DNA from: Planctomycetota bacterium
Lineage (GTDB): Bacteria > Planctomycetota > Phycisphaerae > Tepidisphaerales > Tepidisphaeraceae
Assembly: GCA_039182125.1 (NCBI GenBank)
Contig: JBCDCH010000016.1
Span: 1-64,000 of the forward strand
DNA length: 64,000 nucleotides
Reading direction: 5' to 3'
The position numbers were made by a program, and so were the translations under genes. The notes beneath the pieces were generated by a model. That model saw nothing but the letters and a program-made list of their open reading frames with translations, did not search any database and was not told the origin of the DNA. This document shows, one piece after another, positions 46,971 through 63,962 of this stretch (the stretch's first letter is position 1; every line of letters begins with the position of its first letter).

Positions 46971-47041
46971 GGGGCCATGGTCTAATGGGATGACGGTTGA
47001 ATCGCATTCAACAAATCGGGGTTCGACTCCCCGTGGCTCCA
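46971..47041 (+). tRNA. tRNA-Ala (anticodon CGC), integration target
   Basis: The 71-nt cloverleaf has acceptor GGGGCCA paired with TGGCTCC, including the G3-T70 (G3:U70) pair that specifies alanine, anticodon stem GTTGA/TCAAC around ATCGCAT with anticodon CGC, and T arm CGGGG/CCCCG with loop TTCGACT. Discriminator A; no encoded CCA. Its 3' end from 47017 is duplicated at 63934-63962, marking it as the attachment site of the element to the right. Confidence 0.95.
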
Positions 47042-47045
47042 CTAC
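47017..47045 (+). repeat. attL core (29-bp direct repeat)
   Basis: The 29 bp starting CGGGGTTCGACTCCCCG and ending in CTAC are identical to 63934-63962. They cover the tRNA-Ala T arm, acceptor 3' strand and four bases beyond, the standard target of tyrosine integrases. Confidence 0.95.
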
Positions 47046-47095
47046 TTTTGCCTAACCTGCACCGAAGCGCATAGCACTGCATAAAGCTGCATAAG

Positions 47096-47116
47096 CCCCC
47101 GCAACCGCGGGGGTTT
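47096..47116 (+). terminator. Terminator-like hairpin just inside attL
   Basis: A 7-bp stem CCCCCGC / GCGGGGG with loop AACC followed by TTT lies 55 bp downstream of the tRNA. Because it lies inside the element, the element brings a replacement terminator for the tRNA it disrupts. Confidence 0.75.
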
Positions 47117-47182
47117 ATGTGTTTCCGGGCCGAGCCGCCAAAATGCATCGGGCTGCACGGGGCTGCATAGTTTCGCACGGGG

Positions 47183-47215
47183 TTGATGTCCGTTTTGATG
47201 TCCGTTTTGATGTCC
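47183..47215 (+). repeat. Three direct repeats TTGATGTCC, candidate integrase arm sites (left)
   Basis: TTGATGTCC occurs at 47183, 47195 and 47207, spaced exactly 12 bp and separated by GTT. The same 12-bp-spaced motif recurs twice near attR (63868-63887). Short repeats at both ends of an integrated element, at fixed helical spacing, are typical of arm-type integrase sites. A weak upstream in-frame ATG reads through these repeats (MSVLMSVLM), but coding there is unlikely. Confidence 0.7.
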
Positions 47216-47263
47216 AGTAGGGTCTTCGCTACTTGGGGTCGCGTTCAACGGGGACACATCGAC

Positions 47264-48337
47264 ATGCCGACAGAGCAAGCAACGATTCAGACGTACCGAA
47301 TTCACCGATGCGGTTTCTACCGACGCGGGGCCAAGTCGCCAGAGTTCGGCGAACTAGACGAAGTCCTGACAGAAGCCCGATCGTGGGCGATTGATGGCAA
47401 GTTGCAACTGGGCGACACCTGCACCTTCACGGAAGACGCGAAGAAGTCGTGGCTCGGCGTCTACGCATGGGAGATGAGACGAGACGCTTCGACGGGAACC
47501 TGGGCGATTACATTGTGGAACCGGACGCCGAAAAGTGCGGGCGGGGTGATGTTTGCGGACGCGGCGGGCACGCCGTCCGCTCGCAAGGCTCGAACTTCGG
47601 CCCCTAAGAAGAACGACCTACCCGGCTATCCCACACACTTTTGGTTGGACCCTGCGTCGTCGTCGCTCGTCACCGTTCAACTCGATGAGTTCCCGAACGG
47701 GCATCAGAACCTTATTCGATGGCTAACCGGTTTCCTGCGGAATGTCTCGCCTTACCGCGTCAAACAAACGCATGTAGACGAAGACGGGCAAGAGTCGGTA
47801 GAAAGCGTCACCTGGAGGGAGTTGGGAGCAAGTGACGAAGACGAAACCCCGGCGGTTCAGCCATCGTTCGTATCGAAGCCCGTCGTGCTTCCTGGCAAGA
47901 TCAAGACGGTCCAGGACAATCGAGCGAAGATCAAGCGTGTGTTGATCCGAGAGCAGTTGGTGTCTTCGGTAGTGGATGACCGAGGATTGATTGAGCGGCT
48001 GCTGAGTCGTGTGGACCTCGACTTCCAAGACTACACGCCGAGCAGTGTCAGGGTTGAGGCCAAAATTCCCGTCGTCCCGTCGCAGGAGGACTTGGACGAG
48101 ATGCTTTCAGGCTCTGAGTCGGCCGGGCCATCCGGATTTGGTTTTGAGATCGAAGGCGTCGACAAGCCCGTGTGGATTGACCACGCATCGACACGTGAAT
48201 CACGGAAGTTGGACATTGTCAGAGACAAAAACAATGTCCCCGCAGCGGAGTCGATTTTGCGTACCATGAAGACGCTCCGTAAAACGATCACCAACCGCGT
48301 CAAGCAAGATCTGAGTGTGCATCATGCCATCGACTGA
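47264..48337 (+). CDS. RexA-like candidate abortive-infection sensor
   Basis: The ATG at 47264 (MPTEQATIQTYR) gives 357 aa; the longer frame runs through integrase arm repeats. No named domain was recognised with certainty, but the order of short motifs recalls lambda RexA: an LQLG segment (RexA LQVG) near residue 47, PGYPTHFWLD (RexA LGFPSFLFVE) near 125 and VRVEAKIPV (RexA VKVEAKLPV) near 263. The RexA comparison is from memory. The next gene encodes a four-helix membrane protein overlapping by 14 bp, the same architecture as rexA-rexB. Base composition looks less GC-rich than the neighbours. It could alternatively be an unrelated unknown. Confidence 0.55.
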   Translation: MPTEQATIQTYRIHRCGFYRRGAKSPEFGELDEVLTEARSWAIDGKLQLGDTCTFTEDAKKSWLGVYAWEMRRDASTGTWAITLWNRTPKSAGGVMFADAAGTPSARKARTSAPKKNDLPGYPTHFWLDPASSSLVTVQLDEFPNGHQNLIRWLTGFLRNVSPYRVKQTHVDEDGQESVESVTWRELGASDEDETPAVQPSFVSKPVVLPGKIKTVQDNRAKIKRVLIREQLVSSVVDDRGLIERLLSRVDLDFQDYTPSSVRVEAKIPVVPSQEDLDEMLSGSESAGPSGFGFEIEGVDKPVWIDHASTRESRKLDIVRDKNNVPAAESILRTMKTLRKTITNRVKQDLSVHHAID

Positions 48338-48914
48338 GCGAAAAATCCCGTTTGGCGGAACGGTCTTTGTCGTTGTGGCCGCGGGGGTCATCTTTGGAGC
48401 GCTTGGGTTTTGGCGAGGCGATAAAGTCCCGGGCGATACGATCCGCTCACTCTTCGGCGGGCTAGTAACGATCGCTGGATTCGTTCTAGCGGTGGCGGGA
48501 ATTTGGTTCGCCGTCCTTTATCCGGCTGCACTCGCGTCGTTGGCGAATCGGTCGGGTGATGATGACCGGCAGGTTCGACGCGTGGGGCTGCTGATACTTC
48601 CTGTGCTTGTTTCGGTGGCCACTGTCATCGTGGCGATGGTCGGCGAGCCGTTGCACGCGTTGCTGGAAACGTTCACCGCAGTAGCCGCACACGACGAGCT
48701 CGTGCGTCGGATTGCTTTTTCGGTGCTCGTGTTTCTTACCACGGTCGAAGCTGCGGCGTTGGTAGTAGCGGTGTCTGCGATTCTGTCGATCCACGGCAAA
48801 GCCAAAACCCTGCAGCGGAAAAATCGACACGTCGAGGCTGTTACAGGGCAACCTGCTAAGCCCGTCTCGGGCCACGGACCCGAATCCACATTGCTCGCGG
48901 ACGTTGCAATCTAG
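48324..48914 (+). CDS. RexB-like four-helix membrane protein (candidate)
   Basis: The 196-aa product overlaps the upstream gene by 14 bp. Four hydrophobic helices are visible: GTVFVVVAAGVIFGALGF, LVTIAGFVLAVAGIWFAVLY, LLILPVLVSVATVIVAMV and AFSVLVFLTTVEAAALVVAV. The last contains VEaaAL, comparable to the VELgAL of lambda RexB, whose four-helix inner-membrane protein forms an ion channel when RexA is triggered. The C-terminal ~45 residues are soluble and basic. Order, coupling and topology match rexB; sequence identity is low, so the call stays tentative. Confidence 0.5.
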   Translation: MPSTERKIPFGGTVFVVVAAGVIFGALGFWRGDKVPGDTIRSLFGGLVTIAGFVLAVAGIWFAVLYPAALASLANRSGDDDRQVRRVGLLILPVLVSVATVIVAMVGEPLHALLETFTAVAAHDELVRRIAFSVLVFLTTVEAAALVVAVSAILSIHGKAKTLQRKNRHVEAVTGQPAKPVSGHGPESTLLADVAI

Positions 48915-49085
48915 GGTTCCAGTCGATGGTTGCTTTCAACCACGGGGTGCGGCACTTTTCGACGGGTTAATCGTCTCAAGCCCCGCGACCGAGCTCGATC
49001 TACGACTGGACCACGCAGGGGTGTCGGTTGTCGTCGAAGCCGATCGGCCGTCCGTCGCGCCTGCGTCTTCGGTAGGCTTGCGGCC

Positions 49086-49601
49086 ATGGGACAGTTCAAC
49101 GTCTACGGGGCCGACCGCAACACCGGCGAAGACAAAGCGTGGATCGTCGAAGCGAGTTCGGCCGAGTCGGCCGGCGCGAAGGCGGCCAAGCGGGGGCTCA
49201 TGGTGTCGAGTGTGGAGCCGGTCGAGTCTGACCCGTTGGCGGACTTGGCGACGTCGTCGGTCACGCCGGCGGCGGTGGGGTATTCGTCACGCACGACGCC
49301 ACGACGATCGGCTGCGGGCTACCCGGTGCTCATGGGCGCGTCCTACGGCCTGCTCGGCTGCGCTGGCCTGCTGCTGCTCGGCTTCGCGTGGGCGGTGTTC
49401 CGGCTGCTCCAGGCGATGGCCAGTGCATCGCCAGCACCAACGGTCAACGCCGGCCCGATGGACCCGTTCGCTCAGGCCGCGGCCGAGGCGGCGTTGTGGA
49501 CGTTCGGCATGATGTCGGTGTCACTGCTGGCCGGAGCGTTGTTCTTCGCGACCGTCGGCGGGATCGGTTTGGCCGTGCGCGACATCGCACGGCGGGGATG
49601 A
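49086..49601 (+). CDS. Two-helix membrane protein with N-terminal cytosolic domain
   Basis: The ATG at 49086 (MGQFNVYGADR) gives 171 aa. The first ~50 residues (GEDKAWIVEASSAESAGAKA...GLMVSSVEPV) resemble the small alpha/beta domain seen at the start of type II secretion-like and planctomycete unknown proteins. Two hydrophobic helices follow (VLMGASYGLLGCAGLLLLGF and MMSVSLLAGALFFATVGGIG). No function is evident. Its stop codon lies inside the first of the short palindromes at 49598-49613. Confidence 0.65.
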   Translation: MGQFNVYGADRNTGEDKAWIVEASSAESAGAKAAKRGLMVSSVEPVESDPLADLATSSVTPAAVGYSSRTTPRRSAAGYPVLMGASYGLLGCAGLLLLGFAWAVFRLLQAMASASPAPTVNAGPMDPFAQAAAEAALWTFGMMSVSLLAGALFFATVGGIGLAVRDIARRG

Positions 49602-49879
49602 CCATTTGGTCATGTTCTTCAGCCGGCAGTAAAAATAGGACCCCGGGGTCCCCCTCGCGGACCCATGGGTCCGGTCGAGAGGGGACCATTTGGTCCCCCG
49701 GTCCACAACGACGGTGACGTCCACCATGGTGGAGAGATTTCGGCAGCAACTGAAAAGTGTCTCCAATGGGAGACAGATTTCACCGACAACCGAAAAGTGT
49801 TGCCCATGGGCAACCGATTTCACCACCGGCCGAAATACCGGACACATGTGTCCGGCCGCGGAAGGGCAACGCCGCCGGC
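49598..49879. repeat. Array of eight short covarying palindromes, four at 40-bp period
   Basis: Eight dyads of 14-18 bp occur in 258 bp, centred near 49605, 49644, 49665, 49689, 49726, 49766, 49806 and 49846. The last four are spaced exactly 40 bp. Examples are GGACCCCGGGGTCC, CGGACCCATGGGTCCG, GTTGCCCATGGGCAAC and CCGGACACATGTGTCCGG. In the 40-bp units a variable 14-bp palindrome is followed by a conserved half (GATTTC...CCGAAAAGTG). The palindromes differ from each other yet both arms change together. A 40-bp unit shifts reading frame, so this is not a coding repeat. The region lies between convergent genes. Confidence 0.9.
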
Positions 49880-49977
49880 CCGGTGAAGGTGCCGACGGCG
49901 TTTCGGTCGGGCCGGTAGGCTGGTCGGTTCCCGGCCCGTTCCGCCACCGCCCCCAACGCCTGAGGGTCGGCCGTGGT

Positions 49978-50226
49978 TCAGGCGTCCTTCCACTCGTCGC
50001 CGTCGAGCGGCGTGACGAGCTCGTCAATCGTGACGCCAAGGGCCGCGGCGATACGCTGTATCGTCGAAACGGACGGGTCTGACCGCTTGCCTGACTCCAC
50101 GGCGTACCACTGTTGATGGCCGTGGAACCCGGCACGCTTTGCGGCTTCGGCTTGTGTGAGACCAAGGTCTTCGCGGAGCTGCCGGATTTTGTCGCGGTCG
50201 ACTGGCACCGCTGGCATCGTCGTCAT
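49978..50226 (-). CDS. XRE-family HTH repressor of the element
   Basis: Starting at MTTMPAVPVDRD (ATG 50226; 50256 is an alternative) gives 82 aa comprising one Cro/C1-type HTH: KIRQLREDLGLTQAEAAKRAG, FHGHQQWYAVESGKRSDPS, ALGVTIDELVTPL. The recognition helix region QQWYAVESGKR is typical. It is transcribed away from the early operon, with a near-perfect dyad operator in the shared control region, so it probably represses both promoters like a phage repressor. No peptidase or dimerisation domain is present. Confidence 0.85.
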   Translation of the reverse strand: MTTMPAVPVDRDKIRQLREDLGLTQAEAAKRAGFHGHQQWYAVESGKRSDPSVSTIQRIAAALGVTIDELVTPLDGDEWKDA

Positions 50227-50264
50227 CGCAGCCATCATTGCACGCACCGCCAGCATTTTCAATA

Positions 50265-50300
50265 CGATCGTGTTGACAATCAACACAATCGTGTTAGCGT
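50265..50300 (+). promoter_or_regulatory. Divergent promoter/operator between xre and early operon
   Basis: Arms CGATCGTGTTGA (50265-50276) and TCAACACAATCG (50280-50291) form a dyad with one mismatch and a 3-nt spacer; a further ATCGTGTT half-site follows at 50288-50295. The dyad overlaps a good -35 box TTGACA (50273-50278) with a weak -10 (TAGCGT, ~16 bp away). A repressor bound here would block the rightward promoter and probably its own leftward one. Confidence 0.75.
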
Positions 50301-50365
50301 CCGCCGCGACGCTGGCGGTGCCGTCGGCTCACCCCTCAACCCGTCCCGTGGCGGCGCATGAAAAA

Positions 50366-50398
50366 TGCCCCGCCGGTGCGACAACACCATGCGGGGCA
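50366..50398 (+). other. Leader hairpin before the first early gene
   Basis: Arms TGCCCCGC (50366-50373) and GCGGGGCA (50391-50398) enclose a second GGTG/CACC pairing. It ends 6 bp before the AGAAAGG ribosome-binding site of the next gene and could act as an attenuator or a leader stabiliser. A similar GGCCCCGC hairpin precedes the small gene at 55316. Confidence 0.6.
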
Positions 50399-50419
50399 AA
50401 ACCAGAAAGGTTCAGTTCA

Positions 50420-50773
50420 GTGGCCACAATACAGACTTCCGCCAGCGATGGCAACACCATCGCCCCCGACGTAGGTGCGTCCGCACCGTTCGCGCTCGAC
50501 TTCCTCGATCTTTCACATCCGATGCCTCGGCCAGTCGGTGGCAACTTTGCCACCGTCGACGTGGCCGACGTGCTGCCCGGCCAGTTCGTCCGCGTCAGCT
50601 TCAACGACCACGGGGCCGACCGGTCCATCGTCGGCATCTTCCAGTACCTCGCCGACCGCGTGGTGCGCGTCGTGGTGTCCATGCCCGACGCGGTGTTCCG
50701 CCGGGTCCGCTTGGCCAACATCACGCGTGTCGAGCTGCTCGTTTCCCTTCAGCCGGTGCGAGGTGAAGCATGA
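50420..50773 (+). CDS. Unknown early protein of the element
   Basis: The GTG at 50420 follows AGAAAGG at a 9-base spacing and gives 117 aa. The second half reads like a small beta-barrel binding domain (LPGQFVRVSFNDHGADRSIVGIFQYLADRVVRVVVSM in overlapping pieces); no family is recognised. A 20-bp palindrome with core GTGGCAACTTTGCCAC (50536-50555) lies inside the coding sequence. Overlaps the next gene by 4 bp; first gene of the rightward operon. Confidence 0.7.
   Translation: MATIQTSASDGNTIAPDVGASAPFALDFLDLSHPMPRPVGGNFATVDVADVLPGQFVRVSFNDHGADRSIVGIFQYLADRVVRVVVSMPDAVFRRVRLANITRVELLVSLQPVRGEA
50536..50555. repeat. Dispersed dyad copy 1 (GTGGCAACTTTGCCAC core)
   Basis: Nine-base arms CGGTGGCAA and TTGCCACCG with a CT centre. 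Sixteen bases (CGGTGGCAACTTTGCC) recur identically at 55761-55776, and the core recurs in inverse orientation at 60447-60462. Confidence 0.85.
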
Positions 50774-51633
50774 GCGACGCCACCACGAAGCCCACGCCGG
50801 CCGCTGACGCGAAGCTGGCCACCGACATGCGTACCGCCCGCGAATCTGTCGAGCGTGGCGACCACCTACGACCCCGCCGCGGTGCGTTGGTCGTCGACGA
50901 GATCGGCCGGATCATGCGGGTGAAACACGCCGACGGCGACGCGTTCATTTGCCGGGTTATCTACGACGCCAACGGTCCGACCGATGGCGAGGCCGACGGG
51001 GCCATCCCCGCCGAAACCGGCGAGCTGACCTTACTCGCCCAGGCCGACGGCATGCTGCAGCGTCGACACAACCGACTGCTCGCCATCGAGCATCGCGGCG
51101 ACCGCATCACGGTCTACCACGTTCACGACTTCGACATCGACCACGGCGGGCTTGTGCTCACGCTCGCACCGCGCTGGGACACTTTCGACGGCGAGGATGC
51201 CCGCCGCGGCAAGTTCAGTACCGCCCGGCCCGATGACGTGGTGCTGCTCAACACCATTGGCGTGGTCCGCATCCCCGAACGGATGATGCCGCCGGCACCG
51301 ACGCTGCCCGCCGACCTGAGCGATGAACCCGCCGATGAATGGGTCGACGAGGATCCGCACGACCTGAGCACGCCGGTGGGGCGGGCCGATGAAGCGTCGG
51401 CCATCCTCGAAATGTTCCAGCAGCTACAGCGTCGGCTCGAACGCATCGACCACGACGACGCGAGGGCTGCCATGGAGTGCCACGACATCGCCAACCACGT
51501 CGAAACCCTCGCGCTCAACACGCGAACCGCGGCGATGGATGCCGAGCTTGCCGAGCGGTTCCCCGATCGGCAGACGGACACGACCACGCCGACCGCCGGT
51601 GACGTGGTGGCCGACGATCGCGAGGTGGCGTGA
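50770..51633 (+). CDS. Unknown protein of the element
   Basis: The 287-aa acidic protein overlaps both neighbours. It has no recognised domain; the N-terminal ~190 residues alternate short beta strands (GALVVDEIGRIMRVKHADGD, LLAIEHRGDRITVYHVHDFD), and the C-terminal third (ASAILEMFQQLQRRLERIDHD) is helical and possibly coiled-coil. Together with the flanking genes it forms an early operon whose functions I cannot assign. Confidence 0.7.
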   Translation: MSDATTKPTPAADAKLATDMRTARESVERGDHLRPRRGALVVDEIGRIMRVKHADGDAFICRVIYDANGPTDGEADGAIPAETGELTLLAQADGMLQRRHNRLLAIEHRGDRITVYHVHDFDIDHGGLVLTLAPRWDTFDGEDARRGKFSTARPDDVVLLNTIGVVRIPERMMPPAPTLPADLSDEPADEWVDEDPHDLSTPVGRADEASAILEMFQQLQRRLERIDHDDARAAMECHDIANHVETLALNTRTAAMDAELAERFPDRQTDTTTPTAGDVVADDREVA

Positions 51634-52121
51634 TGTTCGTCATGGCACCGCCGGCGATTGCGGGCATGCGGGACCTGGCCGCCGTCGTCGCCGCCGATGA
51701 TGAGCTGGCGCGGCCGCCGCGCTGGCGACGTGGCGACACCGTGTTCGTGCACATGCCGTCGATGTTGCCGGTGGCCGTGCTCGAGTCTGGCGAGTTGCCC
51801 GCGCTCGATTTGCCGCCGCGAACCCACCGGATGGAACACGACGGCATCGGCCGCGTCCGCGTGCACCGCCTAATCTTCGACGTCGTCGACGGGAACGTGG
51901 TCGGCCCGCTGCCGGCTCGCATCGACTGGACGGGGCGGACGCTCACGCTCGCCGAATCGCTCGGCCCCGGGCAACGCGGTGAGATCCTCGCGGCCGTGGT
52001 GGAGCAGGTCCACGACCGGCTTTGCGTTCCGTTGCTCGGCACGGTGGCCGGGCTCGCGCTGGCCCGCGCGTCACCTGCGCGTCGTGATGGGTTGCGGGTG
52101 CTGCCGGACCTGGCAGCATGA
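51633..52121 (+). CDS. Unknown protein of the element
   Basis: The ATG at 51633 overlaps the previous stop and gives 162 aa (GTG 51630 is an alternative). The central part (FDVVDGNVVGPLPARIDWTG) looks like a small beta domain and the C-terminus is helical; it contains two hydrophobic patches but no clear membrane helix. Function unknown. A 117-bp gap follows before the next gene. Confidence 0.65.
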   Translation: MFVMAPPAIAGMRDLAAVVAADDELARPPRWRRGDTVFVHMPSMLPVAVLESGELPALDLPPRTHRMEHDGIGRVRVHRLIFDVVDGNVVGPLPARIDWTGRTLTLAESLGPGQRGEILAAVVEQVHDRLCVPLLGTVAGLALARASPARRDGLRVLPDLAA

Positions 52122-52238
52122 GTTACGATTCGTCCGGGTAGTCCGCCGGCCAGCGGACGTACGCCAGCGGCGGTGTGATGGTGTCCACCTCTCACCGTCC
52201 CCGCCGCGGCGGCCCGGCTTTCTTTCAGAGGTGACAGC

Positions 52239-52838
52239 ATGAGCGATTTTCTCACCGCGGCCGAGGCGGCTGCGCTAGCCAAACGCATTGAGAAGGTTTA
52301 CCCGGTCCTTTGCGAGGAGCTTTTGTTCGCGGTCGAAGTTGGCCGGGAAGCCGAAGTGCTGCGCTCTTGTGAGAAGTGGCTTGCCGAGGTGCATCGACTC
52401 GGCGAGTGGGCCGTCGTTGAGATCGAAGATTGGGGTGACGAGGCGGATTTCGTTATCCCCGCCGGCCAACCGTGGCACGGTGACCCCGAGAAGCCCGAGG
52501 ACGGGCCAAGCCGGCAATGGATCAACGAGTTTCCCCTGCTCGAGCTCAGCATCGTTCGGCGACATGCCGAGCGTTTGGCGGGGCCGTCTGTCACGCCCGC
52601 TGCGACGTCGACCGAACTGCCGAAGCCGACACCTGCAGTACCCGAAGGAGAATGGTCACGATGGGTTTCGAAGGGCGACGTGTGCGCAGCATGGGGCGTG
52701 GAACGGTTCCGCGATCTTCCATCCGATCTTCGCTTGCGCGGCATCGACGACGGCGGCAACAGTCGGTCGAAGAAAGTTCGCGTGCGACTCGACACATTGG
52801 ACGCGCACGCACGCCGAAAAATCGAGCAGATTCCCTGA
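52239..52838 (+). CDS. Unknown helical protein, possible HTH C-terminus
   Basis: The ATG at 52239 follows AGAGGTGA and gives 199 aa. The N-terminal ~60 residues are helical (LTAAEAAALAKRIEKVYPVL), the middle is linker, and the C-terminus (SKGDVCAAWGVERFRDLPSDLRLRG, then KKVRVRLDTLDAHARRKIEQ) resembles a MerR/excisionase-like winged helix. Such arrangement recurs in phage and satellite regulatory genes. No specific function. Confidence 0.6.
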   Translation: MSDFLTAAEAAALAKRIEKVYPVLCEELLFAVEVGREAEVLRSCEKWLAEVHRLGEWAVVEIEDWGDEADFVIPAGQPWHGDPEKPEDGPSRQWINEFPLLELSIVRRHAERLAGPSVTPAATSTELPKPTPAVPEGEWSRWVSKGDVCAAWGVERFRDLPSDLRLRGIDDGGNSRSKKVRVRLDTLDAHARRKIEQIP

Positions 52839-52843
52839 GTATC

Positions 52844-52899
52844 TGCCACGCAAATGCCACAAATGGCGAGGAAACGGGAGCAAATGCCACAAGTGCCAC
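52844..52899 (+). repeat. Iteron-like TGCCAC repeats before the recombination operon
   Basis: TGCCAC occurs at 52844, 52855, 52885 and 52894; the longer CAAATGCCACAA is repeated exactly at 52851 and 52881, 30 bp apart. The stretch is non-coding and lies just upstream of the genes for the HTH proteins, exonuclease and RecT. It may be an operator or origin iterons. Confidence 0.65.
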
Positions 52900-52940
52900 A
52901 AGTCCCGCGGCGGCCTGCTGAAACCGTCTAGGTTCGCGGC

Positions 52941-53156
52941 ATGCAGCCGGAAGAAAGATTCTGTCCACTTCAACGTGCCGCTCGGCTCCTTGGCGTTCCG
53001 GTCGGTTGGCTCGCCGCTGAGGCTGAGGCCGGGCGGGTTCCGTTTGTTCAGGCGGGACGACGCAAGCTCGTCGAACTGCCCAAAATCCGCGACGCACTCC
53101 GTGAGCGTGCGGAAGCCGAGGCGGCTGAGCGCCGGGGGGAGGCCGTCCATGCCTGA
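52941..53156 (+). CDS. Small HTH protein, excisionase-like
   Basis: This 71-aa protein reads as a MerR/AlpA-like winged helix: QRAARLLGVPVGWLAAEAEAG followed by RVPFVQAGRRKLVELPKIRDAL. Proteins of this size and shape next to another excisionase-like gene usually act as recombination directionality factors or regulators. It overlaps the next gene by 8 bp. Confidence 0.65.
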   Translation: MQPEERFCPLQRAARLLGVPVGWLAAEAEAGRVPFVQAGRRKLVELPKIRDALRERAEAEAAERRGEAVHA

Positions 53157-53367
53157 CGCGCCGACCAAGCCCGTGCGTGATTGGCCGGCCGCGATGTCGG
53201 CCGACACGCTGGCGGAATATCTCGATGTCAGCCCGCGGACCGTCGCGTCGCTTGCCGCCAGCGGAAAGCTGCCGGCGTCGATCGCAGTACCAGGCACGCG
53301 CTGCCGGCGATGGCGTCGGGTCGACGTCGACGAAGCCGTCGCGTCGTGGACCGGGGGTGTGCGATGA
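53149..53367 (+). CDS. AlpA/excisionase-family HTH protein
   Basis: The ATG at 53149 overlaps the previous stop; 72 aa. SADTLAEYLDVSPRTVASLAASGKLPAS and the following CRRWRRVDVDEAVASW form the excisionase-type winged helix (HTH_17), with a W at the end as in Xis and AlpA. It probably promotes excision together with the integrase or controls element transcription. It overlaps the exonuclease gene by 4 bp. Confidence 0.8.
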   Translation: MPDAPTKPVRDWPAAMSADTLAEYLDVSPRTVASLAASGKLPASIAVPGTRCRRWRRVDVDEAVASWTGGVR

Positions 53368-54287
53368 AAGTCACCACCGCAGCCAACCCCGCCGACCGCA
53401 CGACGTTCATCGGCGCTTCCGACACCGCGGCCGTGCTCGGCATGTCCCCGTGGCGATCGCCCGGCGACGTGTACCTCGAAAAATCCGGCCGGCTTGAGCC
53501 GCGCGACACCGGCAACGTTGCCACCACGCGCGGCAACTTGCTCGAGCCCGCCGTGCTGGCGTGGGCCGAGGCCGAGCTCGGAACGCCGATCACCAACCGC
53601 CAGCGGTTCGTCACCTGCCCCGATCACCCGCACATCGCGGCGACGCTCGATGGCATCACCGGTGACGCGCTGGTCGAGGTGAAGACGTCGGCCAAGCCGA
53701 GCGAGTGGGGCGACGCCGGCACCGACGAGATTCCCGACCACTACAAGCTGCAGGTGCAACATCAGCTCCGCGTCGCCGGCGCTCAACTGGCCTACGTGCC
53801 GGTGCTGCTCGCCGCCAGCGGCATCGGCTTCGACTTCCGCATGTATCGCGTGGAGCGTGACGATGAGCTGGCCGAGTACGTCGTCGCCGAAGCCGCTCGG
53901 TTCTGGCGTGAGCATGTCCAGGCCGACGTCGCACCCGACAACTTCGAACCGTCGCTCGATGTGGCCAAGCGGATGCGCCGGGAGCCCGGCAAAACCGTTG
54001 AGATGCCCGACCTGGCCGTCGCCGCATACCTGCAGGCCCAGCGCCGCGTGAAGTCGGCCAACGCCGACCTCGACCGGATCAAGGCTGAGCTGCTCGTCGC
54101 GCTCGACGACGGCGAGGCTGCCGACACCCCGGCCGGCCACCGCGTCACGTACATGGAACAGACCCGCAAGTCGCTCGATGCGAAAGCGATCGAGCGCGAT
54201 CACCCCGAACCCGCCGCGCGGTACCGCCGGCAATCGGCCTACCGCGTGCTGCGCGTGAAGGCTGGGAAGGACATTGGAGATGAGTGA
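53364..54287 (+). CDS. YqaJ/lambda Exo-type 5'-3' exonuclease
   Basis: The ATG at 53364 gives 307 aa. The YqaJ-like viral recombinase fold is visible: GASDTAAVLGMSPWRSPG near residue 12, a Glu in NLLEPAVLAWAE, the catalytic D-(x)n-E-x-K in ATLDGITGDALVEVKTS near 95, and HYKLQVQHQLRV near 130. It resects double-stranded ends to make 3' single strands for the RecT annealase encoded next (8-bp overlap). The C-terminal third is helical. Confidence 0.88.
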   Translation: MKVTTAANPADRTTFIGASDTAAVLGMSPWRSPGDVYLEKSGRLEPRDTGNVATTRGNLLEPAVLAWAEAELGTPITNRQRFVTCPDHPHIAATLDGITGDALVEVKTSAKPSEWGDAGTDEIPDHYKLQVQHQLRVAGAQLAYVPVLLAASGIGFDFRMYRVERDDELAEYVVAEAARFWREHVQADVAPDNFEPSLDVAKRMRREPGKTVEMPDLAVAAYLQAQRRVKSANADLDRIKAELLVALDDGEAADTPAGHRVTYMEQTRKSLDAKAIERDHPEPAARYRRQSAYRVLRVKAGKDIGDE

Positions 54288-55236
54288 ACAAACCACCGCC
54301 ATCACGAAGATCGACTGGAACCAGTCGGCCAACCAGAACCGCGGCTCCGCGCTGCGATCGCTGGCCGACAACGAAAGCGCCTTGGCCCGGCTCACGAACG
54401 TGCTGCCGGACGGGCTCGATGCGCGACGGGTGATGAACACCGCGGCCAACGTCGTGCTCCGCAACGACTACCTCGCGCAGTCGACGATGGTGAGCGTGTT
54501 CAACGCCGTCGTCGAAGCCGCCGAACTGGGGCTCATGGTCGGGTCGGGCGTCGCCGCTGAGGCGTACTTGGTGCCGTTCCGCAACCGCAACAACGGCAAC
54601 CGCCAAGAGGCCCAGCTCATTCCCGGCTACCGCGGGCTCATCAAGCTCGCCGAGCAGTCCGGCGTTGTCCGCGACGTCCAGGCGTTCGTCGTCTACGCCG
54701 GTGAAGACTTCGACTGGCAGCCGGGCGAGCTGCCCAACCACCGCCCCGACCTCACGCTCGACATCGAGAAAGCCGAGCTCGTCGCCGCCTACGCCATCGT
54801 CACCTTCCGCGACGGCGGCCATCGCCGCGCCGACGTGATGCGTGCGTCGGAGATCCTCAAGATCAAACGGGACGCGCTGCGCAAGACCAAGGGCAAAGGC
54901 CCGTGGGTCGACCACGAAGCGGAGATGTGGAAGAAGACCACGATCCGCCGGGCCTGCAAAACGCTGCCATTGTCCGCCGACGACAAGCTGCTCCGCGCAC
55001 TGGAGCTCGAGGATCGGCTGCACGACATCGAAGTTGCCACCCGCGACGTCGGCGGTGTGGCCGACCTCAAACGCCGGCTGCTGCCCGACCGACCCGGCGA
55101 CGTCATCGACGTCGACGATGCGGATGTCAACGCGGACCCGGATGGTGTCGTCGAAGGCGAAGAGGTTGACGAGCCCGGCGGCGAGGGCCTGGCCGGCACA
55201 GGTGGCGGCATCGGCAAGCCCGGCATTCCCGTCTGA
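54280..55236 (+). CDS. recT: RecT-family single-strand annealing protein
   Basis: The ATG at 54280 overlaps the exonuclease gene by 8 bp; 318 aa. Family features are STMVSVFNAVVEAAELGLMVG, AYLVPF, QLIPGYRGLIKLAEQSGVV, AYAIVTFRDGG, KKTTIRRACKTLPLS. RecT anneals complementary strands and works with the exonuclease in phage-type recombination. The acidic C-terminal tail (DVDDADVNADPDG) is typical and may bind SSB-like partners. Confidence 0.92.
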   Translation: MSEQTTAITKIDWNQSANQNRGSALRSLADNESALARLTNVLPDGLDARRVMNTAANVVLRNDYLAQSTMVSVFNAVVEAAELGLMVGSGVAAEAYLVPFRNRNNGNRQEAQLIPGYRGLIKLAEQSGVVRDVQAFVVYAGEDFDWQPGELPNHRPDLTLDIEKAELVAAYAIVTFRDGGHRRADVMRASEILKIKRDALRKTKGKGPWVDHEAEMWKKTTIRRACKTLPLSADDKLLRALELEDRLHDIEVATRDVGGVADLKRRLLPDRPGDVIDVDDADVNADPDGVVEGEEVDEPGGEGLAGTGGGIGKPGIPV

Positions 55237-55268
55237 ACCACCTTGACCTTCCCCGCCCGCGCAGCCAG

Positions 55269-55301
55269 AGGCCCCGCGGGACGCCAATCACCGCGGGGCC
55301 T
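55269..55301 (+). other. Strong leader hairpin before the small gene at 55316
   Basis: AGGCCCCGCGG (55269-55279) pairs with CCGCGGGGCCT (55291-55301), an 11-bp stem with an 11-nt loop, between the recT stop and the next start. No T run follows. It resembles the leader hairpin at 50366-50398. Confidence 0.65.
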
Positions 55302-55315
55302 GAACCACGAACACC

Positions 55316-55534
55316 ATGATCGTACCAACCAAAACGCCGAACGACGACACCGAAGCCGAAGCGCTGCGCCTGCTCGAGTTGCTGACCGGAGTCGAGTCGA
55401 TCACGTTTCGCCGAATGCAGCCGGCCCGGTGCATCGCCGCGGCTGAGCTGCTCATGCGGCAGGGCCACGCGCGGCTGATCCGCGACGACCTCGCCGGCAC
55501 GCTCACCGTTCAACGTCTGCGGGGTGCCCGATGA
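55316..55534 (+). CDS. Unknown small protein
   Basis: The 72-aa protein (EAEALRLLELLTGVESITFRR at its start) is mostly helical, with no family recognised. It overlaps the primase gene by 4 bp, suggesting it assists replication. Confidence 0.55.
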   Translation: MIVPTKTPNDDTEAEALRLLELLTGVESITFRRMQPARCIAAAELLMRQGHARLIRDDLAGTLTVQRLRGAR

Positions 55535-56490
55535 ACCCCGCCGACCTTCTCGACCGGCTTGAACACGTTCGGCGTGCTGCCGGCGGCGGATGGTCCGCGC
55601 GATGCCCGGCTCACAACGGCCGATCGAAGACATCGTTGTCCGTGAGCGTCGGCGCCGACGGCCGTCTGCTGATGCACTGCCACGGCGGGTGCTCGACCGA
55701 CGCCGTACTCGCCGCGCTGGAGCTGCGGCCCGCAGACCTGTTTCCCGATCGCGGATCCACCGGTGGCAACTTTGCCGGGTTCGTCGATGCCGCCAAGCGG
55801 ATGAAACGCGACCAACCCCGCCGACCGCAGCCGCCGGCCGTGAACTTCCTGCCCCTGGCGAAACAGTGGCACGCTGCCGCGGACCTGTCGGCGATTGCCG
55901 ACACGCTCGGTGTGTCGATCGACGCCATGACACGGATGCGGGCGGGACGGGTGACGCGTGAGCAGCTCGAGCAGCTCCGCACCGCCTGCCCCAACGGTTC
56001 GGGGGCGTGGGCCTTCCCGATGAGATGCCACGACGGCCGCATCATCGGCATCCGCACCCGCTTCGACGACGGCACCAAACGTGCGGTCACCGGCAGCCGG
56101 CAAGGCCTGTTCTTCGACCCGACACTCGCCGCGGCCGAGCTGCTCCACGTCGTGGAGGGCTGCAGCGACACCGCGGCCATGCTCACGCTCGGCTTCGACA
56201 ACGTCGTCGGCATGCCGTCGGCGGGGCAGGGGGCCGACCTGCTCGCGTTGCTCATCCAACGCATCGCGCCGCCGACCCCGCGGTGCATCCTGATCGCCGA
56301 CCGCGACGGCCCCGGGCTCGAGGGCATGCGTCGCGTGGCTCGCCAGCTCGCCCGGTGGGGCATCCGCTGCCGTGTGACCGAGCCGCCGGGGGTTTCCAAC
56401 GACGTTCGCGCTTACCTCAACGCTGGCGGCGATGCCGCGGGCGTGCACATGCTCGCCCAGGGCGAGGCCGAGGAGGAGATTGCCGCATGA
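55531..56490 (+). CDS. Phage-type primase (zinc finger plus TOPRIM)
   Basis: The 319-aa protein begins with a CHC2-like zinc finger (WSARCPAHNGRSKTSL, then HCHGGCS at residues ~45-52), matching the Toprim-Prim fold of plasmid and phage primases. The TOPRIM region shows HVVEGCSDTAAMLTLGF near residue 210 and LIADRDGPGLEGM near 255, the metal-binding acidic residues. The compact length resembles satellite primases that lack a helicase domain; the helicase is the next gene (4-bp overlap). A copy of the GTGGCAACTTTGCC dyad lies inside the gene. Confidence 0.85.
   Translation: MNPADLLDRLEHVRRAAGGGWSARCPAHNGRSKTSLSVSVGADGRLLMHCHGGCSTDAVLAALELRPADLFPDRGSTGGNFAGFVDAAKRMKRDQPRRPQPPAVNFLPLAKQWHAAADLSAIADTLGVSIDAMTRMRAGRVTREQLEQLRTACPNGSGAWAFPMRCHDGRIIGIRTRFDDGTKRAVTGSRQGLFFDPTLAAAELLHVVEGCSDTAAMLTLGFDNVVGMPSAGQGADLLALLIQRIAPPTPRCILIADRDGPGLEGMRRVARQLARWGIRCRVTEPPGVSNDVRAYLNAGGDAAGVHMLAQGEAEEEIAA
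55763..55776. repeat. Dispersed dyad copy 2 (GTGGCAACTTTGCC)
   Basis: Fourteen bases identical to the core at 50538-50551 and, in inverse orientation, at 60449-60462. Here the right arm is one pair shorter (GCCGGG instead of GCCACC). Confidence 0.8.
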
Positions 56491-57827
56491 GACTGCCGGC
56501 CGATTACATTCCCGACGACCGCCCCCATGGACTCAACGGCCACGCTCACCACGAGTGGGACCACGATCGCGTCGATGAGGAAATTGCGTCCCGCAGCTTC
56601 GACGAGATCGACGCCGAGCCGATCAAATGGCTTTGGAAGGGCAAGATCGCGCTCGGCAAGCTCACCGCGTTGGTATCCGTGCCGGGCATGGGCAAGTCGA
56701 TGCTCACGTGCGACCTCGCCGCCCGCGTGTCGACGGGTTCGATCATGCCCGACGGCAGCGAGGGCATTCAAGGTGACGTGATTCTGGCCAATGCCGAAGA
56801 TGACCCCGCTGACACGCTGCGCCCGCGGCTCGATGCCGCCGTGGCCGACGTCCGACGGGTCTACACGCTTGATGGGGTTCGCCCCACCAACGGCAAGCCC
56901 GAACGCGTGTTCACACTGGCCGACGTGCCGGTGCTGGCCCGAATGCTCGAGCAGAAGCCGTCGGTGCGATTGGTGATTCTCGACCCGATCGGTTCATTCC
57001 TCACCGGTGCCGACAGTCACCGCGACAACGAAGTCCGGTCGCTGCTCGCCCCGTTGGTGAAGATGGCCGCCGACCACGAAGTCGCCGTGCTGCTCGTCAT
57101 GCACCGTCGGAAGTCGATGAGCCGCAACGCCGACGACATGGTGCTCGGCTCCCGCGCGTTTACCGGCGTGGTCCGCCAGGTGTGGCACCTCAACCGCGAC
57201 CCGAACAATCCGCGGCAGCGGCTCATGTTGCCGGGCAAGTCGAACATCGCCGGGCTCGCCACGGGGATGAGCTTCACGATCGGCGGCGACGAGAACACCG
57301 CCCGGATCTTCTGGAACCGCGAGAGCATCACCATGACCGCCGACGAAGCGGCCAGCGCAGAGATCGACCACGTCGGTGAGTCGAAAGAAGACGCCAGCGC
57401 GCTCGAGATAGCGATGGACTTCTTGCGGTCCGAGCTTACCGGCGGACCTCGCAAAGCGAAGGACATTCAACGCGAAGCCCGTGAGGCTGACATCACCGCG
57501 GGCACCCTTCGACGTGCACGTGAGGAGGTGTGTGAGAAGCCGTACAAGGACGGCTTCGACGGCGGCACCGCGTGGTTCTGGAAGCTCACCCCGATCGAGC
57601 AGAACCACGCCGAAATGTCGGGGCGTCACGAAGGTGCGCACGAAGGTGCGCAAACCCCCCCAACTGATTCAGCTTGCGCACCTTCGGGGAACCTTGCGCA
57701 CCTTCGGCGTAATGACCCTCAAAACCTACATATGAAGGCCGTTGGGGAGACCCTCTACGACGAAGATGCGCAAGGTGAGAGTGCTGGGGATTCACGCGCA
57801 TCTATGGACGGGGAGGGCGAGGAATGA
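56487..57827 (+). CDS. RepA-like AAA helicase (AAA_25)
   Basis: The ATG at 56487 overlaps the primase stop; 446 aa. Walker A is VSVPGMGKSMLTCDLAARV near residue 70, Walker B LVILDPIGSFL near 165, and VLLVMHRRKS near 200 as the third motif, the pattern of RepA/RSF1010-type hexameric helicases (AAA_25). It would unwind the element's origin together with the primase. The C-terminal part (after ~residue 300) contains a winged-helix-like region and then a variable tail encoded by iteron-like inverted repeats at 57629-57706. Confidence 0.88.
   Translation: MRLPADYIPDDRPHGLNGHAHHEWDHDRVDEEIASRSFDEIDAEPIKWLWKGKIALGKLTALVSVPGMGKSMLTCDLAARVSTGSIMPDGSEGIQGDVILANAEDDPADTLRPRLDAAVADVRRVYTLDGVRPTNGKPERVFTLADVPVLARMLEQKPSVRLVILDPIGSFLTGADSHRDNEVRSLLAPLVKMAADHEVAVLLVMHRRKSMSRNADDMVLGSRAFTGVVRQVWHLNRDPNNPRQRLMLPGKSNIAGLATGMSFTIGGDENTARIFWNRESITMTADEAASAEIDHVGESKEDASALEIAMDFLRSELTGGPRKAKDIQREAREADITAGTLRRAREEVCEKPYKDGFDGGTAWFWKLTPIEQNHAEMSGRHEGAHEGAQTPPTDSACAPSGNLAHLRRNDPQNLHMKAVGETLYDEDAQGESAGDSRASMDGEGEE
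57629..57706. repeat. Iteron-like 2+2 inverted repeats, candidate origin
   Basis: CGAAGGTGCGCA occurs in tandem at 57629-57640 and 57641-57652; its complement TGCGCACCTTCG occurs twice at 57675-57686 and 57695-57706. The 22-bp centre is AC-rich. Two direct plus two inverted copies lie within the 3' end of the helicase gene. Origins located in or beside primase/helicase genes are common in phages and satellites. Confidence 0.75.
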
Positions 57828-58054
57828 TCCGCCAGAACCGCCACGTTCCACAACGTCGGTCCGAGCCCGATGACCTGGCCGACCACGTCCGCCTCACGAT
57901 CCGGCCGGACCCGTCCTACACCGGCAACACGCCCGCGGCCATTCGGCTTCGCCAAGTGCTCAAGCGGCTGCTCCGCACATACGGGTACCGGTGCACGTCC
58001 GCCGAGCCAATCGACCCGCCGACCGACAACGAACCAGGGGGCGGCCGTGACTGA
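57824..58054 (+). CDS. Unknown small basic protein
   Basis: The 76-aa protein overlaps the helicase gene by 4 bp and the next gene by 8 bp. It is Arg-rich (AIRLRQVLKRLLRTYGYR), suggesting nucleic-acid contact, but no family is recognised. Confidence 0.55.
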   Translation: MIRQNRHVPQRRSEPDDLADHVRLTIRPDPSYTGNTPAAIRLRQVLKRLLRTYGYRCTSAEPIDPPTDNEPGGGRD

Positions 58055-58265
58055 GACGTACCACTTGCCGATGCCGTTCTGCCCGCGCTGCAGGTCGACG
58101 GACCTGTACTGCCAGCGCTCGGCCCCGCAGGGCGACGGCTCGCGGCTTAAGTACTTCGTCTGCCTTGAGCTGCCGTGCGGCCACCGCTTCAAGGTCGTGC
58201 TCGAGCCGCCGGAGAAAATCGCTGATTTTCCACATGGTGGAAAGGACGCCCGACGTGCCGGCTAG
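58047..58265 (+). CDS. Ogr/Delta-like zinc-finger protein
   Basis: The GTG at 58047 gives 72 aa. FCPRCRSTDLYCQR followed by YFVCLELPCGHRFKV shows the CPxC ... CxxxxC pattern of the Ogr/Delta zinc finger, which in P2-like phages and satellites activates late transcription or borrows a helper's transcription. Its position immediately upstream of the structural genes fits such a role. The pattern is also compatible with other small zinc ribbons. Confidence 0.65.
   Translation: MTETYHLPMPFCPRCRSTDLYCQRSAPQGDGSRLKYFVCLELPCGHRFKVVLEPPEKIADFPHGGKDARRAG
58227..58243. repeat. Palindrome over a ribosome-binding site
   Basis: TTTCCAC and GTGGAAA flank a 3-nt centre. The right arm overlaps GGAAAGG, the likely ribosome-binding site of the gene starting at 58255, so hairpin formation would hide it. 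The centre resembles the palindrome CCACCATGGTGG in the array at 49720. Confidence 0.6.
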
Positions 58266-58560
58266 AACCTCGCCAGTGACCCATGCGGACGCCGACAACC
58301 TCGCCGCGGTCGACGACGCCGTCGACGCCGAGTTGAAAGTCCCGGCGATGCTGCTGCTCGAGGCCGACATCGCCGGTGGGATCAAGCTCAACGACTGCAG
58401 CAAGGCCCGCTGGAAGGCGGCGGTGCTGCTCGAGCAAACCGGTGCCGCCCGCATCTACCACCGCGACGACGGCGAGCTGATCCTCATGTGCCGCATGGAC
58501 CTGTCCGCTGCCCGCCAGATTCTCGCCGACACCCCGCCATTCCCAACCCCCGCGCCATGA
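58255..58560 (+). CDS. Unknown protein of the element
   Basis: The GTG at 58255 follows GGAAAGG at 9 bases, the same motif that precedes other genes of the element; ATG 58234 is an alternative. The 101-aa product is helical (AVDDAVDAELKVPAMLLLEAD, ARWKAAVLLEQTGAARI). No family recognised. It overlaps the coiled-coil gene by 4 bp. Confidence 0.55.
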   Translation: MPARTSPVTHADADNLAAVDDAVDAELKVPAMLLLEADIAGGIKLNDCSKARWKAAVLLEQTGAARIYHRDDGELILMCRMDLSAARQILADTPPFPTPAP

Positions 58561-59045
58561 ACCCCACGACCACCGCTACGAAGAACGCCACCGCCAACGC
58601 CCTGGCCAACGTCGCCAGGCGACGCGAGCAGGAACAGAACCGCCGCATCGACGACTTCGTCGAGCTGCTGCAGAAACTCGCCGCCGGCGACGAGCTGGCC
58701 CCCGACGAGATGGACCGCTTCGCGGAGCTGTCCAAGGCGGCCAATGTGAGCGACGGACAAGTCACCGCTTGGGTACAAGGGCTCGCTCAGGCGATGGCGT
58801 CAAACGTGACGGCCGAGCAGCTCGAGCAGGCCCGGCAGGAAGCGGAGGCCGCCAGCGAGGCCTACGAGAACGAAGGCCAGCGGATCAAGGACCGCATCGC
58901 CGAGTTGCGTGCGGAGGTTCAAAAACTCGCCGAGCGGGACGACGAAGCGACCGCTCGCTACGCCCATGTTCAGCAAGTCGCCGACGCACTTCCTGAGAAA
59001 CAGGCATCGCTTCGCGAGCAAATCGCCCAGCGTCTGTCCGCCTGA
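58557..59045 (+). CDS. Coiled-coil protein preceding the capsid gene
   Basis: The ATG at 58557 overlaps the previous stop; 162 aa. Almost entirely helical with heptads (EQLEQARQEAEAASEAYENE, DRIAELRAEVQKLAER). A helical, acidic protein immediately upstream of a major capsid gene often serves as a scaffolding protein, but no diagnostic motif is present, so this is positional inference. Confidence 0.6.
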   Translation: MNPTTTATKNATANALANVARRREQEQNRRIDDFVELLQKLAAGDELAPDEMDRFAELSKAANVSDGQVTAWVQGLAQAMASNVTAEQLEQARQEAEAASEAYENEGQRIKDRIAELRAEVQKLAERDDEATARYAHVQQVADALPEKQASLREQIAQRLSA

Positions 59046-59152
59046 TTGCCGGCCTCTTACCCATGCCCCGACCCACACGCCCGTTTCCGATCCGCGACGA
59101 CGTCGCGACCGTCCCCGGCTCATCCGAGCGACTCCACGTACGAAAGGCCACC

Positions 59153-60331
59153 ATGCCGATGCCCACCACCACACGACGCTCCGAAGATCAAACCCATGGG
59201 CTCGCCGCCGCGATCGCGCTGCGGGCCGGACTCGACTGGACGAAGCTTCCGGTCGGCAACGTCCGCGACCCCGACAAACGCCGCCAAGCTCAGGAACGCG
59301 CCGCCGACAAAGCCGACGCGATCCGCATTCGGAGCTTGGTCGACTTGTGCGAGCAGGCACTCCGCATGGAAGGCGGCCACGTCCCGGACAACATCGACGA
59401 CACGATCCGCTTCGCCGTCAGCACCGCCACCCTCGAGCACGCGTTCACCGACGCGATCGGCGCGATGGTTTCCGACGGCTACGACAACGCCCCGGACACC
59501 ACCGATTGGTGTGAGGAAGTCGACGTTCGGGACTTCCGCGAGCAGACGGACATCACGCTCGGTGCCTCAAATCGGCCGCAGAAACACGCCCGGGGCGGCA
59601 CGGCCAACCACGCGTCCATCAGCGACAACGCCGAGAAGTTCCGCATCGCCCGCTACTCGCAGCAGCTCGTCGTCGACGAGATGGACATCATCGACGACCG
59701 ATTCGAGCTGATCCAGGAACTGCCGCGCGAGATGGCCGAGGCGGCCCGGCAACTGCGGCCGGACCTCGTCTACGCGTTGCTGCTGGCCAACCCGTCGCTC
59801 ACTTCGGACTCGACCGCCATCTTCCACGCCGGCCATTCAAACCTTGGCACCGCCGTGCTCGGCGCCGAGGGGCTGCAGGCCGGCATCACGGCCATGGGCC
59901 TGCAGCGACTCGGTGAGCGCGCGTTGAACGTGCGAGCCCGCAACGTCATCGTCCCCCCGGACCTTTCGTTCACCGCCCGCCAGCTCATCAACTCGAGCGA
60001 GGTTCGCGGCGACGCGGCGGCCAACGGCACCCGCAACCCGCTGCAGGGCCAGGGGCTCAACGTCGTGGAGGAATCCCGCATCAGCACCGGCGGTGTCGTC
60101 GACCCCGACAGCGGCGTGAGCTACGCCGGCTCCGCGACCAACTGGTTCCTCGCGTCCGACCGCCGCACGGTTGCCGTGGCCTACCTCATCGGCAGCAACC
60201 GACGCCCGGTGGTCCGCTCAACGAACCTCACCGGCGGTCGCTGGGGGCTGGGTGTCGACATCAAGCTCGACATCGCGGCGTACGCCCGCGACTTCCGCGG
60301 GCTCTACAAGTCGACGGGTGCCGGTGCGTAA
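59153..60331 (+). CDS. Phage major capsid protein, HK97/Mu gpT-like
   Basis: The ATG at 59153 has GAAAGG six bases upstream; 392 aa (59063 is an in-frame alternative). The central pattern FRIARYSQQLVVDEMDIIDD, then LRPDLVYALLLANPSL and AIFHAGHSNLGTAVLGAEGL, matches major capsid proteins of the Mu gpT/HK97-fold group, and ASDRRTVAVAYLIGSNRRP near the C-terminus is typical of the same family. The N-terminal ~110 residues would be the delta/scaffold region. No maturation protease is encoded nearby, unlike in most HK97-type phages. Confidence 0.8.
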   Translation: MPMPTTTRRSEDQTHGLAAAIALRAGLDWTKLPVGNVRDPDKRRQAQERAADKADAIRIRSLVDLCEQALRMEGGHVPDNIDDTIRFAVSTATLEHAFTDAIGAMVSDGYDNAPDTTDWCEEVDVRDFREQTDITLGASNRPQKHARGGTANHASISDNAEKFRIARYSQQLVVDEMDIIDDRFELIQELPREMAEAARQLRPDLVYALLLANPSLTSDSTAIFHAGHSNLGTAVLGAEGLQAGITAMGLQRLGERALNVRARNVIVPPDLSFTARQLINSSEVRGDAAANGTRNPLQGQGLNVVEESRISTGGVVDPDSGVSYAGSATNWFLASDRRTVAVAYLIGSNRRPVVRSTNLTGGRWGLGVDIKLDIAAYARDFRGLYKSTGAGA

Positions 60332-60380
60332 CAGTCGTAGTTGGGTCGTCGCCGGTGCGTTACCGGCGGCGACTGGTTCG

Positions 60381-60435
60381 CGCCCGCCGGTGGTGGTTTT
60401 TCTCCGACCACGCGCCGATCGCCGGCGGGCGTTTT
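60381..60435 (+). terminator. Intrinsic terminator after the capsid gene
   Basis: CGCCCGCCGG (60381-60390) pairs with CCGGCGGGCG (60422-60431) across a 31-nt loop and is followed by TTTT, 50 bp after the capsid stop. A smaller hairpin with GTCGCCGGT/ACCGGCGGCGAC arms precedes it. Capsid and tape-measure genes therefore probably have separate transcripts. Confidence 0.75.
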
Positions 60436-60446
60436 GATACACCCTC

Positions 60447-60462: not shown

Positions 60463-60486
60463 GTTCACCCGTAGGAACCGCCCACC

Positions 60487-62731: not shown

Positions 62732-63928
62732 ATGACCATCCTCAAACGCAAACGCAAGGTGACCCGGCCGGACGGGATCACCACAACCTCAGTCTCACGC
62801 TGCTGGTATATCCAGTGGCGTGACGCCTGCGGCAGGCTTCACCGTCGCAAGGGCTACACCGACAAGGCGGCCACCCGCCAGCTCGCCGCGAAGCTCGAGG
62901 CCGAGCAGGCCCGCGGTGAGCAAAGCATGGTGGACGTCTACCGCGACCATCGCGCGCGACCGATCGGCGAGCATCTCGATGACTACCTGGCCCACCTCGA
63001 GGCCCAACGTCGTGACGATGACTACCGCTACCACGTTGATCGCCGGTGCCGGCTCATCATCGACCAAGCTCATTGGCGAACGCTCGATGACGTCACGCTC
63101 GACTCGTTTCTCGCGTGGCGAAACCGGCGGGCAAAGACCGGCAGCCACAACGGCCACGGCATCGAGAAGGGCAAGCCGCTCACGGCCCGGACGCTCAACC
63201 ACTACCGGGACGCGGTCCGCGGTTTCCTCAACTGGTGTGTCGAAGTGAAACGCATGCCGGTGAACCCGCTGGCGAACGTGGCCAAGGTCACGGGCGAGAA
63301 GCGGATCAACCGACGCGCGCTCACCGTGGAGGAAGTGGGGCGGCTGCTCAACACCGCACCCGCCGATCGACGGTTCGCGTGGTTGTTCCTGCTCACCACC
63401 GGCCTGCGGTGCCAGGAAGCTGCCGACCTGCAGTGGCGTGACGTTCAGCTCATGGCGACGCGTCCGTACCTGCAGCTCCGCATGGAGGCGACGAAGGCCA
63501 AGCGCGCCGATCGCGTGTGGCTGCGGCCCGAAGTCGCCGACGAGCTGCGGGCGATGCGGCCGAGCAACTGCCGTGGCACCGATGCCGTGTTCGATCGGTT
63601 CCCGTCGCTCAAGTGGTGGAAGTCGGACCTGGCCGCCGCCGGTGTCGACTACCGCGACGACAGCGGACGCCAGGCCGACCGGCACGCCACGCGGATGACG
63701 CTCGGTACAATGCTGCAGCAGGCGGGCGTATCACCACGCGCTGCCCAGGACGTGCTGCGGCACGCGACGTTGCGGCAGACGCTCGAGCACTACACCGACG
63801 GCAGTGCCTTCGACACCGTCGCCGCGGTGGACTCGCTCCCGGCCCTCGATCGGGCCGCCGAAGCGGATGATGTCCGTTTTGATGTCCACTCCTCCGAAAA
63901 GCGGCCTGCACGGGCCGCGAACGCATGA
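62732..63928 (+). CDS. int: Tyrosine integrase of the element
   Basis: The ATG at 62732 follows AGAAAGG at 7 bases; 398 aa. The N-terminal part (YIQWRDACGRLHRRKGYTDK) is the arm-binding domain, a SAM-like core-binding domain follows (HLDDYLAHLEAQ...FLAWRNRR, written in part), and the catalytic domain has R in LTTGLRCQEAADL, K in ATKAKRADR, RHATRMT (H-x-x-R), LRHATLRQ and Y in LEHYTDG. The coding sequence ends 5 bp before the attR core and contains right arm-type repeats in its last codons. It catalyses integration into tRNA-Ala. Confidence 0.95.
   Translation: MTILKRKRKVTRPDGITTTSVSRCWYIQWRDACGRLHRRKGYTDKAATRQLAAKLEAEQARGEQSMVDVYRDHRARPIGEHLDDYLAHLEAQRRDDDYRYHVDRRCRLIIDQAHWRTLDDVTLDSFLAWRNRRAKTGSHNGHGIEKGKPLTARTLNHYRDAVRGFLNWCVEVKRMPVNPLANVAKVTGEKRINRRALTVEEVGRLLNTAPADRRFAWLFLLTTGLRCQEAADLQWRDVQLMATRPYLQLRMEATKAKRADRVWLRPEVADELRAMRPSNCRGTDAVFDRFPSLKWWKSDLAAAGVDYRDDSGRQADRHATRMTLGTMLQQAGVSPRAAQDVLRHATLRQTLEHYTDGSAFDTVAAVDSLPALDRAAEADDVRFDVHSSEKRPARAANA
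63868..63887 (+). repeat. Two direct repeats TGATGTCC, candidate integrase arm sites (right)
   Basis: TGATGTCC at 63868-63875 and 63880-63887 has the same 12-bp spacing and GTTT spacer as the three copies at 47183-47215. The copies lie within the integrase C-terminal codons, 46 bp before the attR core. Confidence 0.75.
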
Positions 63929-63933: not shown

Positions 63934-63962
63934 CGGGGTTCGACTCCCCGTGGCTCCACTAC
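63934..63962 (+). repeat. attR core (29-bp direct repeat)
   Basis: The 29 bp are identical to 47017-47045. They carry only the T arm and acceptor strand of tRNA-Ala and therefore do not make a complete tRNA. The sequence diverges immediately outside the repeat on both sides. Confidence 0.95.

Follow-up and report, generated by a model that had tools for sequence, protein, structure and literature searches.

Does the two-gene unit at the attL end of an integrated element in a planctomycete represent a distant form of the lambda RexAB system? Lambda RexAB is among the oldest known abortive-infection systems, and the way in which RexA senses infection is unsettled. The unit lies in the window, by which we mean the whole 64,000-nt stretch of DNA analyzed, and consists of gene A (47264..48337, + strand, 357 aa) and gene B (48324..48914, + strand, 196 aa), which overlap by 14 bp. 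The gene A product is soluble, and gene B encodes a membrane protein with four predicted transmembrane (TM) segments, at about residues 10-28, 47-65, 87-105, and 130-148; its AF2 model contains four long helices (pLDDT 85). The GC content of the pair is 57.8%, compared to 65.8% for the window. A first-pass annotation had described this same arrangement, namely a soluble 357-aa gene overlapping a four-helix membrane protein gene by 14 bp, with a lower GC content and a cargo position beside attL. The gene coordinates proved exact, and four TM segments and a GC deficit were recovered.

The cargo position is borne out by the boundaries of the element. A 29-bp repeat, comprising the 3′ end of a tRNA-Ala(CGC) gene plus bases beyond it, forms attL (47017..47045, + strand) and recurs as an exact copy at attR (63934..63962, + strand); these two copies, at 47017 and 63934, are the only ones in the genome. 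A close match to the tRNA-Ala stretch is present in relatives of the same family. The 16.9 kb between the copies is thus an element integrated at tRNA-Ala(CGC), with a tyrosine integrase gene beside attR (62732..63928, + strand; Pfam Phage_integrase, 5.5e-14). Gene A starts 218 bp inside attL, and short tandem copies of GATGTCCGTTTT lie between the two at 47187-47217. A gene for a Cro/CI-type HTH regulator (49978..50286, - strand; Pfam HTH_3, 2.5e-13) follows the pair at a distance of about 1 kb, and the element further encodes a RecE-like exonuclease, RecT, a primase, an AAA_25 protein, a major capsid protein (phrog_4523, Phage_capsid_4), and a tape-measure-like protein. The ORFs scanned in the 16.9-kb element (47017-63962) included no terminase or portal gene, and the element may be a reduced prophage or resemble a satellite. 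The pair is cargo of this integrated phage-like element.

Both proteins have an entry in the PADLOC catalogue. Gene A matches the PDC-M18A HMM with an E value of 3e-64 (residues 2-344 on positions 2-336 of 339), and the adjacent gene B matches the PDC-M18B HMM at 2.7e-26. Both matches are near full length, and no difference in kind from the family was seen. On sequence grounds we confidently assign the pair to PDC-M18, a PADLOC-catalogued candidate phage-defense family, as a new member with proteins just about 25% identical to the nearest relatives found. Other resources say little about what the pair does. No Pfam family matched gene A even at E 10, and the PHROGs matches (phrog_24371 for gene A, 1.4e-24; phrog_37654 for gene B, 4.6e-6) are both function-unknown entries. 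Our literature search found no paper on any PDC-M18 member.

We then asked where relatives of gene A occur and whether they keep the membrane partner. Relatives were found on 5 viral and 47 genome contigs, chiefly from Proteobacteria, with other holders in Desulfobacterota, Cyanobacteria, Campylobacterales, and one Spirochaete MAG. They include proteins of phages Ps59, vB_Pae_U3, vB_HboP_4908, vB_BpuM-ZY1, PSTCR3, and 10N.222.45.E8_PE002, and some are encoded on plasmids. A scan of viral contigs with the single protein returned zero relatives, and an eight-member alignment was too divergent for use in scanning. Within the phylum of the window, the A and B models match the same 2 of 392 genomes, with the genes adjacent, and a third genome, from the same family as the host of the window, carries, at the edge of a contig, a fragment of A followed by B. 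The suggestion that the phylum has no described system of this kind therefore stands only in part: the pair is sporadic there, but relatives occur in the same phylum and widely elsewhere, mostly in Proteobacteria.

Rather than occurring alone, gene A retains its membrane partner in every relative with enough flanking DNA to judge (about 50). The partner lies 3′ of A at a spacing of about -60 to +11 bp in nearly all cases, and has four TM segments in most and three in some by a simple score. The contigs of the apparently partner-less relatives (L033, L056, and L073) end too soon. In L047 and L072 the partner is present and the A frame is broken; in L029 and L068 a recognizable partner with a broken frame could be read by eye in translation. 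Across 44 pairs, the divergences of A and B are correlated (Mantel r 0.73; the null distribution reached 0.31 at most), which is what joint inheritance of the two genes should produce. No dominant neighbor family emerged from a survey of the genes around the relatives, pointing to a varied genomic context.

Some of these contexts are of note in their own right. In Vibrio phage 10N.222.45.E8_PE002 (L016, 2321-6673), the PDC-M18 pair has a CI-like repressor gene on one side and Septu PtuA/PtuB and then a type IV restriction gene on the other, forming a compact phage-borne defense hotspot. A Halomonas phage (L004) and a phage whose recorded host is Bacillus pumilus (L005) encode near-identical PDC-M18 proteins in the same gene order, a likeness that is surprising for such distant hosts and perhaps reflects a mislabeled host.

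The RexAB proposal had originally been built on four short motifs. The lambda letters given for them were correct (LQVG at 37, LGFPSFL at 88, and VKVEAKLPV at 157 of RexA; VELGAL of RexB). Of the window motifs set against them, PGYPTHF is conserved in the family, its P and G being invariant among 52 sequences, but LQLG, VRVEAKIPV, and VEAAAL are not. In the profile alignment described below, the invariant PG of PGYPTHF does fall opposite LGFPSFL of RexA, whereas VRVEAKIPV falls opposite LDIVIKPKF and not VKVEAKLPV. With three of the four pairs not conserved and one of them out of register, we set the motif case aside as mostly coincidence.

Family-level comparisons likewise give no support for placing the window pair in the RexA or RexB sequence family. 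The PADLOC RexA and RexB HMMs match neither protein of the window pair, the RexA model not even at E 10, with gene A matching PDC-M18A models only, and lambda RexA and RexB match their own PADLOC models (RexA, 9e-110) and not those of PDC-M18. BLASTP of gene A against RexA gave a single 11-residue match (E 0.05), profile comparisons using our first alignments gave no signal on the RexAB question, and a search of PDB sequences with the family profile returned only chance matches such as calmodulin. With larger alignments (52 PDC-M18A and 23 RexA sequences), hhalign gave a score of 22 (20.2 on lambda columns) at a probability of about 1%. This score is weak and marginal; nevertheless, none of 60 column-shuffled controls reached 20.2 (mean 14.5, max 19.7), nor did the reversed control (16.9), and the alignment is collinear over most of the protein. 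For gene B against the RexB profile, the score of 18.0 stayed below that of the reversed control, 18.7, so homology to RexB was not detected.

Structure prediction gave a clearer result for gene A. Its AF2 model, built from 49 sequences, has a pLDDT of 91.1 and a pTM of 0.85. In a Foldseek search of this model against 350,542 PDB chains, ranks 1 and 2 were chains B and A of lambda RexA (8TWQ; E 9.4e-4 and 2.1e-3, probability 0.96 and 0.87), and the third-best match was at 0.068. RexA (8TWQ) is the sole PDB entry below E 0.001, so no PDB structure other than RexA significantly resembles the predicted fold. The yeast inner-kinetochore chain 8ow1_N ranked sixth in the PDB search, and RdgC ranked ninth (E 0.056) in a fold search of a viral library; neither is significant alone. 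Both agree with what has been described for the RexA fold, whose relatives are RdgC and the kinetochore proteins IML3/CHL4 (PMC11077077). The viral library also contains four unnamed phage proteins that share the gene A fold at E <0.001 (best 8e-11, TM 0.54/0.60). A fold search with the gene B model gave no significant match.

Whole-chain rigid superposition of the gene A model on 8TWQ was poor (TM 0.26/0.31, rmsd 18.5). RexA was crystallized in a closed form, and its domains are hinged and thought to open on DNA (PMC11077077); a model that is opened differently could thus misfit even if it were a true homolog. The low TM-scores, the silent RexA HMM, and the marginal profile score would also fit a PDC-M18A that is not homologous to RexA and resembles it by a chance likeness of alpha/beta folds, with a mechanism of its own. 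We consider this quite unlikely given that RexA takes ranks 1 and 2 among 350,542 chains with a clear E-value gap to the rest and that the profile alignment is collinear over most of the protein. Of the claim for a distant RexAB system, then, the strict pairing holds up and the fold match to RexA is significant but poorly superposed; a place within either Rex sequence family and homology of B to RexB are not supported. What is new here is the tie that the predicted model suggests between the candidate family PDC-M18 and the Rex fold, which plausibly makes the pair a relative of a classic defense system.

Taken together, we favor a reading in which the pair, a PDC-M18 system carried as cargo of a phage-like element, acts in the manner of RexAB, and we assign this reading a probability of about 0.64. 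As PDC-M18 has the same architecture as the Pseudomonas putida and lambda systems, their scheme is our best guess for how the pair would act. The gene A product, a soluble and probably dimeric protein of RexA-type fold, would be a putative infection sensor that binds DNA without sequence specificity. Once triggered by phage infection, it would activate B, the putative effector, a four-helix inner-membrane protein that would open or damage the membrane, so that the infected cell stops growing and the infection is aborted. Lambda RexA and the RexAB of P. putida are the models from which we take the dimer, the binding to DNA, the triggering of B by A, and the membrane damage with abortive infection. 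Positions that are basic across most of the family (R225, I228, R229, R311, R320, and R339 in the window protein) are candidate DNA contacts, which may act like R219/K221 of RexA.

The direction of control is one point at which this scheme could differ. A might instead be an antiviral effector that is held or inhibited by B, or B a toxin kept in check by A, as in a toxin-antitoxin system. A sensor and an inhibitor cannot be told apart by gene order, and mycobacteriophage Butters gp30/gp31 share the architecture of a soluble and a four-TM protein, with gp30 proposed as the active part (PMC7542560). The strict pairing in PDC-M18 is compatible with both models, but in P. putida RexAB and in the lambda model it is A that triggers B (PMC12894663), and we regard the inverted arrangement as unlikely.

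A further possibility would fit the presence of the regulator gene about 1 kb away within the element. The RexA-fold protein might chiefly tune the lysogeny switch or the DNA metabolism of the element, with exclusion as a side effect: lambda RexA alone biases the bistable switch, and its fold is common to RdgC, which modulates recombination (PMC11077077). Many family contexts, however, have no adjoining repressor, yet the membrane protein is always present, and a primary role in switch tuning seems very unlikely to us.

Under the favored reading of a RexAB-like defense system, placing PDC-M18 as a branch of Rex would give a catalogue entry that now has no mechanism a testable one. It would also provide about fifty diverse natural pairs in which to find the essential parts of sensor and effector.

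Among known systems, the actinobacteriophage pairs CarolAnn gp44/gp43, Sbash gp30/gp31, and Butters gp30/gp31 resemble the window pair as defense systems made of a soluble and a four-TM protein. CarolAnn gp44/gp43 match neither the PDC-M18 nor the RexA/B models, and we rejected them as a bridge to Rex as gp44 fails to align with PDC-M18A. Separately, the 3.3-kb ColRNAI-type Escherichia coli plasmid pLAO57 (L022, 1402-2683) carries a RexA homolog (PADLOC RexA, 2.6e-104) and, after it, a RexB-like gene, the two making up about 40% of the plasmid.

Another parallel is RexAB of P. putida prophage P1 (PP_5643/PP_5644), in which the likeness to RexA was recognized by HHpred and Dali, A binds DNA, defense needs both genes, and cells that overexpress A stop growing and leak through their membranes in a B-dependent manner (PMC12894663). 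Like the window pair, it combines a RexA-like protein recognized only by profile or structure with a four-TM partner whose homology to RexB is undetectable (PMC12894663). The PP_5644 residues named in that report were unmatched among PDC-M18B sequences in an ungapped test, suggesting that P. putida RexAB and PDC-M18 may be different branches; a search of 349 Pseudomonas genomes with the RexA profile found no PP_5643-like protein and was uninformative.

Compared to lambda, where current models have RexA sensing infection and opening RexB (PMC12894663), the window pair likewise places a soluble protein directly upstream of a four-TM protein, again within an integrated phage-like element, and the predicted fold of A best matches 8TWQ. 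It differs in that A is longer (357 aa, compared to 279 aa for RexA), with extra sequence between blocks, and B is both longer (196 aa, compared to 144 aa) and without detectable relation to RexB. Nor does it sit directly behind a repressor gene, the nearest HTH gene being about 1 kb off on the opposite strand; the PDC-M18 pairs of phages L004, L005, and L016, on the other hand, lie directly behind or near a CI/LexA-type repressor gene, as rexAB does. We give even odds to the hypothesis that PDC-M18 is a second major Rex-type branch, combining a DNA sensor of the RexA/RdgC fold with four-helix effectors that have no detectable relation to RexB, in which case a single sensor fold would have acquired different membrane effectors on several occasions.
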